From NCBI RefSeq assembly GCF_005144965.1, contig NZ_CP039704.1:2712001-2776000 (forward strand): a stretch of DNA of 64,000 nucleotides. Direction: 5' to 3'. The notes under the pieces are model-generated. The model searched no databases. It was not told the origin of the DNA and worked only from the letters and a program-made list of their open reading frames with translations. A program made the position numbers and the translations under genes. This document shows, in pieces, positions 33,097-39,326 of this stretch (within the stretch, counting starts at the first letter, position 1; each line of letters opens with the position of its first letter). Source of the DNA: Hankyongella ginsenosidimutans. Its GTDB lineage: Bacteria > Pseudomonadota > Alphaproteobacteria > Sphingomonadales > Sphingomonadaceae.

Positions 33097-34861
33097 ATGT
33101 ACGCTGACATCGTGCCCCTGCGACCGCTTCTCGCCAACGCCGCGCCCGAACCCGGCGATAGCCGGGCGTTCGATGTCCAGGTGCTGATCGACGCCTTGCC
33201 GACCTCCGCACTGATTTTCCAGCGCGCCCCGGACCATGGCTTTGTCTGCGCACTGGCCAACCAGGCCTTCGAGCGGCTGGCGAACTACACCCGCCACAAC
33301 TGCATCGGGCTGACCCTGCCGAAAATCCGCCTGATCGGAACCAGCGCGGTTATCGCCGGCGCGATTGCCGATTGTTTCGAGGCCGGAAGCGCACGCTGCG
33401 TCAGCGTCGAGTCCCGCGAAGACATCAACTGTCAGTCGCTGGAATGCTGCATCGCGCCGGTGCAGTCCGCAGACGGCCGGGTGACCCGCGTGCTGCTCTC
33501 GATCATCGATCGCACGCCGGAGCGTCTGGCCGAGCGCCAACTGCTGCACGCGGCATCGCACGATAATCTGACCGGCCTGCCAAACCGCACGCTGCTGACC
33601 GAGCGTATCGAGCGCGCGCTGGCCAACGCCAAGAACAACGCACGGCGCCAGGTCGCACTGCTGTTCCTCAACATAGACCGGTTCAAACTCATCAACGAGA
33701 GCCTGGGCCATGTCATCGGCGACGAACTGCTGATCACGCTCGCGCGCCGGCTTATCGGCTGCGTGCGTGCAGGCGATACGCTGGCGCGGCTGGGCGGGGA
33801 CGAATTCGCCATCCTGCTCGAGGACGTGCAGTCGATCGCCCCCGCGCGAAACCGCTGAGCGCATCCACCGGGAACTCAGCAATCCGATAAGGATCGGCGG
33901 CGAAGAACTCTATGTGTCGCTCAGCATTGGTGCCGCCTCATCCCTGTCCGGCGAGTATTTCGCCGAGAACCTGATCCAGGATGCGGACTTCGCCATGAAC
34001 CGCGCCAAGGCGCTCGGCCGCGGCTGCACCGAAATCTACCAGAACGCGGAGCATCTTGAAGCGCGCGCCCAGTTCCGTCTGGAAACCGACCTGCGGCATG
34101 CGGTCTGGCGGCGCGAGCTGACGCTCAACTATCAGCCGCTGATCGACCTGAAGACGGGCCGCCCGCATTCGTTCGAGGCGCTGGCCCGCTGGCACCACCC
34201 GACCCGCGGCTTTGTTTCGCCGGTCGAATTCATTCCCGTCGCCGAATCGACCGGGCTGATCGTGGAGCTGGGACGCTGGGCGCTCGACGAGGCCTGCCGC
34301 ACGCTTGCGCAATGGCGCAGCGACGGCGTCGCGCCGGACGATCTGCGAGTCGCCGTGAATGTCTCCGCCCTGCAGTTCGCGCGCGACGATCTGGTCGCGG
34401 TGGTGCTCAACGCGCTGGAGCGCTACGATCTGCCGGGTCGCTGCCTGGAGCTGGAGATCACCGAAAGCGCAATCGCCGAGCACCCGCAAAAGGCCGTCGA
34501 CGTCCTGAACCAGTTGAAGGCGCAGGATGTCATCATCGCCATGGACGATTTCGGCACCGGCTATTCGTCGCTGGGCGCTCTGCAGCAATTGCCGATCGAC
34601 ATCCTGAAGATCGATCGCAGCTTCATCGCCGGCATGCTCGAGCTTGAAGAAAGCCACAAGCTGGTCTGCACCGTGCTCTCGCTTGCCAGCCACCTGGGCA
34701 AGGCGACCGTCGCGGAAGGGATCGAGCGCTTCGATCAGGCGGTGGCGCTGCGCGATCTCGGCTGCACGCTCGGCCAGGGCTATGCCTTCTCCCGCCCCGT
34801 CGACAACGCGCATGCCGCCGAGTTCCTGCGGCGCACGGCCGCACAGGCGATCGCCTTCTAG
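33097..34861 (+). CDS. PAS-GGDEF-EAL cyclic-di-GMP signalling protein, one frameshift
   Basis: A PAS-like sensor fills residues 25-140 (LIDALPTSALIFQRA, ANQAFERLANYTRHNCIG). The GGDEF domain (HDNLTGLPNRTLL, LFLNIDRFKLINESLGH, LARLGGDEFAILLED) has an intact catalytic motif. After a break near 33845 the EAL domain follows (SFEALARWHHP, VNVSALQF, LELEITESA, MDDFGTGYSSLG, LKIDRSF, AEGIE), with all expected metal-binding acids. It could both make and degrade c-di-GMP. No transmembrane segment is visible, so it is cytoplasmic. Length about 588 residues. A PilZ effector is encoded 7 kb upstream. Confidence 0.92.
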
Positions 34862-34950: not shown

Positions 34951-35315
34951 TCAAGGTGTAGGGCCCGCCTCCACGCACTCAAGATCCATGCGCACCTGCG
35001 TGGAGCCGTCCGGCCCCGCGACGATCGTAATCGGACTGGCGGCGCGCACGAGCCAGCGCCCAGCCGCCGCATCATCAAGCGCAAACAAACAATCCCGCCG
35101 CTGCACCCAGGTCAGCCAGGCGGCGAACGCCTCCGCGTCGCCATGCTTCACCGGGATCGACACAGCGAACACGCGGGTGCGCCAGCGCTCGCCGCTCGTC
35201 TGCGGGCAAAGGCGCGGCAGGCTGGGAATTTCCTCGAAGGGCCAGGCCAAGACGTGGCGCGCTTGCTTGAGCTTCGAAATTCTACGCGGGAATACGCGCA
35301 GGCCGCCCTTCGGCA
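34951..35315 (-). CDS. Hypothetical protein, third gene of the operon facing the S24 repressor
   Basis: About 121 residues starting MPKGGLRVFPRRISKLKQAR, with WPFEEIPSLPRLCPQ, VFAVSIPVKHGDAEAFAAW and IVAGPDGSTQVRMDLE. I do not recognise a family. The acidic, Trp-rich C-terminal half looks like a beta-rich small-molecule or virion-type fold, but this is a guess. The frame is open upstream beyond this start, so the true start is uncertain. It is preceded by an AT-rich gap (35320-35420) that may hold its own promoter. Confidence 0.5.
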
Positions 35316-35420
35316 TCAGCCTATTACTGGACACAAGCGCACCTCGAACACCGCCCGCAACAAACTCGTATTGGTTGTATATTACTTTACGAGCTTTAGC
35401 AATGGCTGATATTCTAGGAT

Positions 35421-35748
35421 TCAGCGTGCATCGATCAGCGCCAGCACCTCGACGATCAGCTGCCGGCCCTGTCCGCCAGACCCTCCCCGCCCGCATGCAG
35501 ATATCCACGAGAACCTGATCGTCCGGCAACCAGGCTCCATCAGCAAATGTCGCCCGCAGAGCCTCGATCAGGGCAGGCTCAGCCTGTGGTGCCATGCCGA
35601 TCACCAGATGATAGCGCATGCCATCGAAGGTCGCGCTAACCCAGGGCCTGGCTTCGAAATCCACCAACCAGAACCTGTCGACGGGGAAAACGGTACGTAG
35701 CGTGCGCCTGGCGCGCTGCAGAGCGGGAGAGACATCCAGGGTCAGCAT
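35421..35748 (-). CDS. Hypothetical protein, second gene of the operon facing the S24 repressor, frameshifted
   Basis: It starts MLTLDVSPALQRARRTLRTV, overlapping the stop of the small upstream gene by four bases (translation coupling). It contains RFWLVDFEARPWVSATFDGM and YHLVIGMAPQAEPALIEALR. After a break near 35480 it would end QGRQLIVEVLALIDAR at 35421. Length about 108 residues. The pattern of a small GMRYHL strand and a VDI...LIVEVLALID end resembles small proteins I associate with prophage-like regions of sphingomonads, but no family can be named. Confidence 0.5.
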
Positions 35749-35927
35749 GCTGCACCTTTCGCTTCGAGGTCCGACAACCAGACTTCCAGACGGGTACACA
35801 TGGGCGGGCTTGGCCTGCGCCCACGCCGCAGGTCGAAAATCAGGCGTGGATCGGCCGCAATGGCGCGTCCGGCCGTCGACGGTGCGATGGCGTGGACCCT
35901 GAGGGCGTATTCGATGCGATCGAGCAT
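35742..35927 (-). CDS. Small putative DNA-binding regulator (61 aa)
   Basis: MLDRIEYALRVHAIAPSTAG, then RAIAADPRLIFDLRRGRRPS and MCTRLEVWLSDLEAKG. The layout (short helix, PSTAGR, a DPRLxxDLRRGR turn, then a hydrophobic helix) is that of minimal Cro-like helix-turn-helix proteins common in alphaproteobacterial prophages. It is transcribed away from the S24 repressor gene, with two palindromic operators between them, and is the first gene of a three-gene operon. It is intact. Confidence 0.6.
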   Translation of the reverse strand: MLDRIEYALRVHAIAPSTAGRAIAADPRLIFDLRRGRRPSPPMCTRLEVWLSDLEAKGAAC

Positions 35928-35954
35928 AGGAGACCTCGCATAAAAACTATTCTC

Positions 35955-36009
35955 TAGGTTTTTCCTATTATCGGAAGATGCCTTGCATGTCTAGGTAAAT
36001 TCCTATAAC
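35955..36009. promoter_or_regulatory. Divergent promoter region with two TAGG-CCTA operator palindromes
   Basis: TAGG-N5-CCTA lies at 35955-35967 and TAGG-N6-CCTA at 35992-36005, both within a longer CTAGGT...TTCCTAT context. On the minus strand TAGACA (35988-35993) and TAATAG (35965-35970) are separated by exactly 17 bases, so the two operators cover the -35 and -10. On the plus strand TTGCAT (35983-35988) and TATAAC (36004-36009) could serve the repressor gene, though at 15 bases their spacing is short. The arrangement is that of a self-regulated repressor switch. Confidence 0.6.
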
Positions 36010-36094
36010 GCATCGCACTACGGGGGTGCCGGGAACAGTGCGCAGGCGCTGCTCCACCGATGTTGAGGGGCCGGCCGACCAGGCCGGAGCGCGT

Positions 36095-36763
36095 ATGGAC
36101 TCTGAACAGGTGCGTATCACGCTGGACCAGCTTATCCGCTCCGGCAATGAGGACTATGCTTCGATTTCCCGCCTGCTCGGGCGGAACCCCACCTATGTCC
36201 AGCAGTTCATCAAGCGCGGCGTGCCGCGCCGCCTGTCGGAGTCTGATCGGCGGATTCTGGCGCGCCATTTCAATGTCAGCGAGCGGGACCTCGGTGGGCC
36301 GGACGGGCCGCAAGTGCGCAGCAACGCCACCGATGTCCGGGACTCGGAAGATTTCATGCTCATCCCCTACTACGATGTGCGCGCCTCAGCCGGCGGCGGC
36401 AGCCTGCAGACAGGCATCGAAGCACCGGACTCGGCGCTGGCGTTCCAGGCCCGCTGGGTGCGTTCGATCGCCAGCGGCGGGATCGAGAGTCTGGCGGTCA
36501 TCCGCGTCGAGGGCGACTCCATGTTCCCGACCCTCAACGACGGGGATCATATCCTGCTCGATACCGCCGACCGCCGCGTGCGGGACGGCATTTACGTCCT
36601 GCGCACGGACGACAGCCTGCACGTGAAGCGGCTCGCCATCCACCCCGCCACCGGCCGCCTGACGATCCAGAGCGACAATCCCGCCTATCCAAGCTGGCCG
36701 GATTGCCCGGCGCACAGCGTGGAAGTCATCGGCCGGGTGGTCTGGGTCGGCCGCAGGCTCTAG
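36095..36763 (+). CDS. S24-family (LexA/CI-like) autocleaving repressor
   Basis: This is an intact 222-residue protein. The N-terminal helix-turn-helix spans residues 20-65 (DYASISRLLGRNPTYVQQFI, then KRGVPRRLSESDRRILARHF). The C-terminal S24 peptidase domain has the serine in VEGDSMFPTLNDGDHIL and the lysine in LHVKRLAI. Such repressors cleave themselves when RecA filaments form, linking gene control to DNA damage. The gene faces a three-gene operon across two operator palindromes, which it presumably binds. It may be a prophage leftover or a domesticated regulator; no phage structural genes are adjacent. Confidence 0.88.
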   Translation: MDSEQVRITLDQLIRSGNEDYASISRLLGRNPTYVQQFIKRGVPRRLSESDRRILARHFNVSERDLGGPDGPQVRSNATDVRDSEDFMLIPYYDVRASAGGGSLQTGIEAPDSALAFQARWVRSIASGGIESLAVIRVEGDSMFPTLNDGDHILLDTADRRVRDGIYVLRTDDSLHVKRLAIHPATGRLTIQSDNPAYPSWPDCPAHSVEVIGRVVWVGRRL

Positions 36764-37174: not shown

Positions 37175-37390
37175 ATGAATACCAGTCCGCTGACCATCGC
37201 CGACACCGCAGTTTATGTGACAGCCACCAGCCTGATTGCCGACCATGGCGAGTATGCCTGCGTCGAGGCCGCTGCCCGCGCCGACGCCAGCCAACGCATC
37301 GGCAATGTCGTCGAATTCTCGCACTGGCGCCAGGTCGAGCGCGCGGTCCAGATCCTGCAGCTTGAAGACATTATCGGCGACCTCCATTAA
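37175..37390 (+). CDS. Conserved small hypothetical protein (71 aa)
   Basis: MNTSPLTIADTAVYVTATSL, then IADHGEYACVEAAARAD and NVVEFSHWRQVERAVQIL. It has a good ribosome site (AGGGAG, 6 bases before ATG), is intact, and its FxxWRQVER core is one I associate with short proteins widespread in sphingomonads. Soluble and helical by composition; function unknown. Confidence 0.6.
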   Translation: MNTSPLTIADTAVYVTATSLIADHGEYACVEAAARADASQRIGNVVEFSHWRQVERAVQILQLEDIIGDLH

Positions 37391-37449: not shown

Positions 37450-39326
37450 GTGCTAGCGCTCGCCGTCCTCCTGCTGCAGGAGCAACGCCTGCCGATCCCC
37501 GCCGCAGGCAGGGGTGCCGTATCAAGTTGAGCAACGCTCCGACGAGGATGCGCTGGAACTGCCGGCCGGCGATGAAGAACCCGTAGACATCGGCGCATCG
37601 TCCGCCGCCGATACCGTGCGCTATACGGTTCGCTTTCCCGGCTTCAAGGAAATCGGGCTGGAGGAGCGCCTCCAGGAAGCCTCGACGCTTTGGGCCGAGC
37701 GGCGCACCCCGGCCGCCAGCCGCGCCCAGATCAGCCGGCCTCGCTTGAGGACCGGGATATCGCGCTCCTGCTGCTGCGCAATGATGGCTATTACGGCGCA
37801 AACGTCACAACCCACCTGCGCACCGACCCGGCGGACCCAACCCAGCTTGAAGCGGAATTGAGCGTCGAGCCGGGCGCGCGCTACACGTTCAGCGCCGTTC
37901 GCATCCAGACGCCGGACGATGTGCGGCCGCTCGTCGAATCCCTGCTGAACATCCAGACCGGCGACGTCGTGCAGACCGAGGCGATTCTGGCCGCCGAGGA
38001 CCGTTTGCGGCTGGAACTTCCCAAGCGCGGCCGGCCATTCGTGATGCTGTCCGATCGCGATATCCTGATCGACCACGACGCCTCGGCGGCGCGCTACACC
38101 CTGCAGGTCGACCCCGGACCGGACGCCGTGTTCGGCGACTTGCGCTTCGAGGGCCGCCAGGCCTGCGGCGCAACCACATGGCGCGCCTGTCCCGCTTCAA
38201 GGCCGGAGAACCCTATGACCAACGCCGCATCGACGACCTGCGCGAGGCGCTGGTCGCGACCGGCGTGTTCGCCACCGTGCAGATAACGCCTGAGCGGCCG
38301 CCCGAGGGAGCGCCGGAACCGGTGGCGGTGCCGATCGTCGTCCGGACCGAACAGGCGAAGGTCCGCACGCTCAGTGCCTCGCTCGGCTATGCCACCGACG
38401 AAGGCCCGAACGGCTCCATCGGCTGGCAGCACCGCAATCTGCTGGGCGGCGAGGAGCGCTTCACGACGGAAGCCAAGGTCGGCACCATCGAACAGTCGGC
38501 GCTGGCGACCCTGGAGCTTATCAATTTCGGCCGCCGCGACCAATCTCTGCTGTTCCCGTTCACCATCAAGCGCGAGCGGCCGCTGGCTTTCGATGCAGAC
38601 AGTATTTCCTTCGGCGTCGCCGTGACACGTCAGGCCGGGCCGGTTGTGCAGCGTCGATGGGTTGGCAGCCTCGGCACCGAACTCAACGCCACCCGCACAG
38701 TCGACAGCACGGGCGAGCGCCGCTTCCTGCTGCTCTCGACGCCGCTGAGCCTGCGCTACGATGCGACGGACGACCTCCTGAACCCCACCCAGGGCTATCG
38801 GCTCGGTGCCATTCTCGCGCTGGATATTGCAACAGAGGACAGCCTGTTTTCCTATGGCCGGTTCGAGGCGACCGGCTCCTATTACCTGCCGATCGATGAC
38901 GACGGCCGGCTCGTGCTGGCGCAGCGCTTGCGGTTTGGCTCCATCGTCGGCGCCGGCCAGCAGCGGATCCCCGCAACCCGCCGCTTCTATGCCGGCGGCG
39001 GCGGCTCGATCCGCGGTTTCGGCTTCCAGCGCGTCGGCCCGCGTGACGCCGAGGACGACCCGCAGGGCGGGCGCTCGCTCATCGAGCTGAGCGGAGAGAT
39101 CCGCTGGCGGATCACCGAGACCTTGGGCATCGCTCCGTTCCTGGATGCCGGCAATGTCTATGCCGGGCCGAACCCCGAGCTGGACCGTTTCCGCTTCGGC
39201 GCCGGATTGGGCCTGCGCTACTATACCAGCTTCGCCCCGGTTCGCCTGGACATTGCGACGCCATTCCGCCGGCGCGACGGCGAGGAACGCATCGCCATCT
39301 ATGTCAGCGTCGGGCAGAGCTTCTGA
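37450..39326 (+). CDS. tamA: TamA outer-membrane translocation protein (BamA family), frameshifted
   Basis: A GTG start at 37450 behind AAGGGAGGGG gives the signal-like MLALAVLLLQEQRLPIPAAG. Breaks near 37500, 37740 and 38165 join it to POTRA domains (RYTVRFPGFKEIGLEERLQ, LLLLRNDGYYGANVTTHL, EPGARYTFSAVRI, ADPGPDAVFGDLRFEG) and to the 16-strand barrel (LSASLGYATDEGPNGSIGWQ, LSLRYDATDDLLNPTQGYRL, FYAGGGGSIRGFGFQRVGP, with the conserved RGF lid, FAPVRLDIATPF). TamA with TamB moves phospholipids and assembles some outer-membrane proteins. About 625 residues. tamB starts one base after the stop. Confidence 0.92.

Follow-up and report, generated by a model that had tools for sequence, protein, structure and literature searches.

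What does a phage-type S24 repressor control when it stands divergent from a small leftward operon in a bacterial chromosome and the genes around it are not those of a phage? We addressed this question for a locus within a stretch of 64,000 nucleotides (the window; it runs from position 2712001 to 2776000 of a genome of 2.88 Mb in one contig, with a completeness of 86.7%), in which an earlier note had recognized the layout of a phage immunity region without a prophage. That description holds: no complete prophage (integrase, structural genes) was found around the repressor, where the neighbours read are a GGDEF-EAL gene and tamA. The 60-aa protein, the 71-aa protein and tamA of the downstream flank recur among relatives (tamA also adjoins the unit in Polymorphobacter L148 and, by inspection, L169), indicating that the chromosomal address is inherited. 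We consider it likely that the unit is a phage immunity switch that has been domesticated and passed on vertically, comparable to Francisella FddR, with a captive tail-terminator paralog. The features of the locus are listed in Table 1.

Table 1. Features of the switch and its flanks, in window coordinates
Feature	Position	Strand	Evidence or remark
ORF3, probably outside the unit	34951..35316	-	Unconserved
G2, tail-terminator family	35421..35748	-	Start overlaps stop of HTH gene; frameshifted near 35490; profile match
Cro-like HTH protein, 61 aa	35742..35927	-	Relatives, profile matches, fold
Operator-like palindrome 1	35955-35967		TAGGTTTTTCCTA, exact; overlaps leftward -10 by 3 bp
Candidate leftward promoter	35965..35993	-	TAGACA 35988-35993, 17-bp spacer, TAATAG 35965-35970
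Operator palindrome 2	35992-36005		TAGGTAAATTCCTA, exact; shares 2 bp with leftward -35; also overlaps TATAAC of candidate rightward promoter
TATAAC of candidate rightward promoter	36004-36009		Overlapped by palindrome 2
S24 (LexA/CI-type) repressor, 222 aa	36095..36763	+	PF00717 E 1.8e-17; ATG at 36095
Gly-rich small protein, 60 aa	36820..37002	-	Conserved neighbour, not in switch
71-aa protein	37175..37390	+	Conserved neighbour, not in switch
tamA-like Omp85 gene, frameshifted	37514..39326	+	Conserved neighbour; PF01103 E 5.2e-50

The rightward gene is an S24 repressor, as the note had it: membership in the Peptidase_S24 (LexA/CI) family is borne out by the domain match, by a Ser142/Lys178 dyad and by a putative Ala99-Gly100 cleavage site, both placed by alignment. 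By motif count the relatives carry the Ala-Gly pair in 116/125 cases (it is missing from the other 9/125 orthologs), the serine in 121/125 and the lysine in 123/125; autocleavage is plausible because site and dyad are retained. The putative N-terminal HTH region is strongly conserved in the alignment; its Pfam HTH matches fall below the cut-off, and from residue 24 the protein matches PHROG 4 (transcriptional repressor, E 5.9e-40). By S24, the closest named relatives are found in Polymorphobacter and allied MAGs, at about 63-66% identity.

The first leftward product had been called Cro-like, and the modelled structure agrees: the protein is predicted to have an XRE/434-Cro-like fold, the AlphaFold model of its family (pLDDT 91.6) finding the 434 repressor, HipB and 434 Cro as best folds, with weak Foldseek statistics (TM 0.63-0.67, probability up to 0.85, E about 1). 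Its gene was found in 29/60 relative genomes.

The second and third leftward genes had been left as unknown, and only the second can now be given an identity. Judged by profiles and modelled fold, G2 is a tail-terminator homolog of phage derivation. An ortholog from another family matches PF11367 (E 6.8e-21) and PHROG 176 (tail terminator), and a member from another family matches the RcGTA tail terminator by sequence (E 1e-4). Sphingomonadaceae members, which give no Pfam match of their own, are joined to the other-family orthologs by profile-profile comparison (98.3%, E 1.3e-14), and in fold they come closest to 6tba, the tail terminator of RcGTA (E 8.5e-4, probability 1.00). G2 thus shares family and fold with that protein, Rcc01690, but is a second, separate copy that lies outside the gene transfer agent (GTA) cluster, at the promoter of the S24 unit. 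In the window, its frame switches near 35490 (VLVDICMRAG to GSGGQGRQLIVEVLALIDAR) and ends at 35421, which reflects either real loss or an assembly indel. Besides G2, further frameshifted genes lie at 33097-34861 and 37514-39326; because the nearby tamA and GGDEF-EAL gene are also broken, assembly indels are likely, though not proven. The third gene, ORF3, has no homolog in the relatives' loci read or in phages and no family match, and we rejected it as a phage gene on the phage and family searches. The three-gene operon proposed previously is therefore not sustained: conservation among relatives extends to the first two leftward genes and stops before the third.

Both palindromes lie in the gap between the divergent repressor and HTH genes. 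They had been placed exactly on the -35 and -10 of the leftward promoter; palindromes and hexamers are indeed present, with the 17-bp spacing that the coordinates bear out, but "exactly on" is too generous because the overlaps are just 2 and 3 bp. The further claim that one palindrome overlaps the repressor's candidate -10 is correct, palindrome 2 covering part of TATAAC. A generic sigma-70 scan gave no match above threshold for the leftward promoter, and there is no LexA-type site (GTTC-N7-GTTC) within the gap. Only six TAGGN5-6CCTA palindromes occur in the whole genome, two of them in this gap, as against 69 occurrences of the reversed pattern, so that the pair is far beyond chance (by our own Poisson estimate, about 6e-8 for two within one gap of about 170 bp). 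A 13-bp palindrome, TAGGGGCACCCTA, lies near both contig ends (G000:C1 54935 and 2863868) and may be a repeat or an end overlap.

The predicted operator is conserved and almost private to the S24/HTH promoter. The family consensus is TAGGA-N4-TCCTA, matched at 9/10 positions or better in 28/48 non-redundant gaps versus 0.4% in dinucleotide shuffles. Exact TAGGA-N3/4-TCCTA sites occur in 24/60 relatives, frequently as the copy at the S24/HTH gap; we set aside second operators elsewhere since the remaining exact sites, among those inspected, are mostly intragenic. The two palindromes of the window fare differently when conservation is checked. Palindrome 2 aligns within a footprint, TCCTACTAGTCTAGGTAAAAAACTA, that is kept across the Polymorphobacter group (the nearest relatives), whereas palindrome 1 is not conserved at that place in this group, several of whose gaps hold an imperfect operator site only.

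The unit itself is real and old, and probably vertically inherited. An S24 ortholog is present in 241/250 Sphingomonadaceae species and 87/90 genera (E 1e-20), which settles the conservation of the repressor that the earlier note had proposed to check, and at E 0.001 some S24 homolog was found in 54/60 relatives. Across 80 named loci the HTH gene adjoins S24 in 73 and G2 does so in 49; the 31 loci with no G2 match beside S24 include many examples of an Erythrobacteraceae cassette described below. In the loci read, a gene for an HTH protein of about 60 aa, often followed by one of about 110 aa, diverges from S24. Purifying selection acts on S24, HTH and G2 alike: among closely related pairs, Ka/Ks of each gene is far under 1 (misframed S24 values for L185/L188 and L181/L188 were left out), and G2 evolves fastest. 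If the locus were a functionless, decaying prophage fossil that stands beside tamA by chance, the unconserved third gene, the frameshifted G2 of the window and the lack of conservation of palindrome 1 would all be expected; the near-universal repressor, the selection on S24, HTH and G2 and an operator kept across genera make such a fossil extremely unlikely.

Several loci depart from the common arrangement. One 2.1-Mb genome (G023:C7:1572589) has the small HTH gene and no S24 match, and in another (G025:C1:27184 and 2709437) the contig carries S24 at a distance from the HTH-G2 pair. In other families (L067, L069, L074, L098) a gene of 129-178 aa with a conserved C-terminal motif lies between S24 and the tail-terminator gene, replacing the small HTH; as a GafZ homolog this middle gene was dropped (profile comparison 3%, E 0.013). 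Mainly in Erythrobacteraceae (L190-L226), a near-identical S24-HTH-operator cassette without G2 recurs across genera. Three of its loci were looked at more closely (L191, L204 and L182), and each has conjugation-type genes beside the cassette (TraG_N and TraH were Pfam-confirmed in L191 only); this second setting of the same genes and operator indicates that the S24-HTH pair is a stand-alone regulatory cassette. The association, together with S24 relatives on Sphingomonas and Sphingobium plasmids, is also what would be seen if the unit had originated from ICE or plasmid regulators of the SetR type, with the HTH protein activating transfer-type genes and G2 a passenger. We regard such an origin as very unlikely, given that the chromosomal copies share the tamA address and S24 is in nearly all species, that transfer could equally have run from chromosome to ICE, and that a passenger G2 fits poorly with purifying selection. 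SetR of the SXT/R391 ICEs, an ICE-borne HTH and S24 repressor, faces a divergent operon across a gap that holds several operators, undergoes RecA-mediated self-cleavage and controls the activators SetCD (PMC4542580); the present unit differs in its chromosomal position, and no SetCD-like activators were seen at it.

The kinship of G2 with an RcGTA protein raises a further alternative, namely that the unit is the GTA control locus of the order, a counterpart of Caulobacter RogA-gafYZ in which S24 represses an HTH regulator and a GTA structural paralog, and derepression aids GTA particles. RogA is a chromosomal LexA-like HTH-S24 repressor of gafYZ in which key residues for cleavage are missing (PMC9632790), and the unit resembles it in being such a repressor in alphaproteobacteria with a link to GTA biology. 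The closest solved relative of G2 is the RcGTA tail terminator, and the same genome carries a separate RcGTA-like cluster near 775 kb (capsid, tail tube and baseplate genes) and a DUF6456 (GafZ-type) gene at 787 kb. Loss of S24 accompanies loss of GTA genes: among the 250 species, S24 and DUF6456 occur together in 218, S24 only in 23, DUF6456 only in 2 and neither in 7 (DUF6456 missing in 7/9 S24-negative versus 23/241 S24-positive; Fisher 5.5e-6), and for gp12 the corresponding numbers are 169, 72, 1 and 8 (missing in 8/9 versus 72/241; Fisher p 6e-4), both tests ignoring phylogeny, so that common ancestry inflates their significance.

Against this reading, S24 is retained in 72/80 gp12-negative genomes and so is more than a mere component of the GTA, with the reservation that gp12 is a single marker and these genomes may hold divergent GTA clusters. 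Two genomes (G002 and G014) have the whole unit, including G2 (read in fetched loci only), and neither g9 nor gp12 was found in them; two gp12-positive genomes (G001 and G004) gave no g9 match. The GTA cluster has a g8 of its own. An operator at the DUF6456 loci was rejected, 30 such loci showing no excess of operator-like sites over mononucleotide shuffles, although the pattern may differ from RogA's motif. From RogA as described, the unit is set apart by keeping the cleavage residues, by having its sole clear operator in its own gap and by the retention of its S24 in most GTA-marker-negative genomes. Weighing both sides, we think a GTA control locus unlikely. As a separate observation, DUF6456 (the GafZ-type GTA activator family) is retained in 60/80 family genomes without gp12, a hint that it has a GTA-independent role.

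We therefore return to the domesticated immunity switch, for which the nearest model is Francisella FddR, a domesticated S24 switch that is proposed to be damage-released and has the operator GTG-N11-CAC (PMC13148647). The unit is FddR-like in that the divergent promoter of an S24 peptidase gene contains a palindrome, a likeness drawn from layout and residues; it differs in its operator, TAGGA-N4-TCCTA, and in its predicted targets, the Cro-like protein and the paralog of a tail terminator. Both layout and residues are compatible with release of the repressor by damage, which is reported for SetR (PMC4542580) and proposed for FddR (PMC13148647). In the mechanism we propose, the S24 repressor would bind the TAGGA-N4-TCCTA-type palindromes in the gap, blocking the leftward promoter and limiting its own. 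DNA damage, through the RecA filament, would trigger self-cleavage at Ala99-Gly100 and free the two-gene HTH-G2 operon; the Cro-like protein would then likely compete for the gap, resetting or committing the switch, and tail-terminator-fold G2 would be the output. To judge from the sequence, the switch is probably flipped by DNA damage and appears to hold down the Cro-like protein and a spare phage-tail capping protein.

A possible role of the output is in defence or competition, upon release by damage: the captive tail terminator would be made when a phage (resident or incoming) triggers damage, and would cap or poison foreign tail assembly. This would explain both why G2 evolves faster and why the unit is retained where no GTA is present; we hold it to be quite unlikely nonetheless.

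The open-licence literature on Sphingomonadales contained nothing specific on this unit. Few domesticated S24 switches are known, and the proposed switch, with its conserved predicted operator, would join them as one that belongs to the core of a whole family. It also presents a phage structural gene that is kept beside a repressor in genomes without a detected GTA marker, which points to a role of G2 outside the particle.
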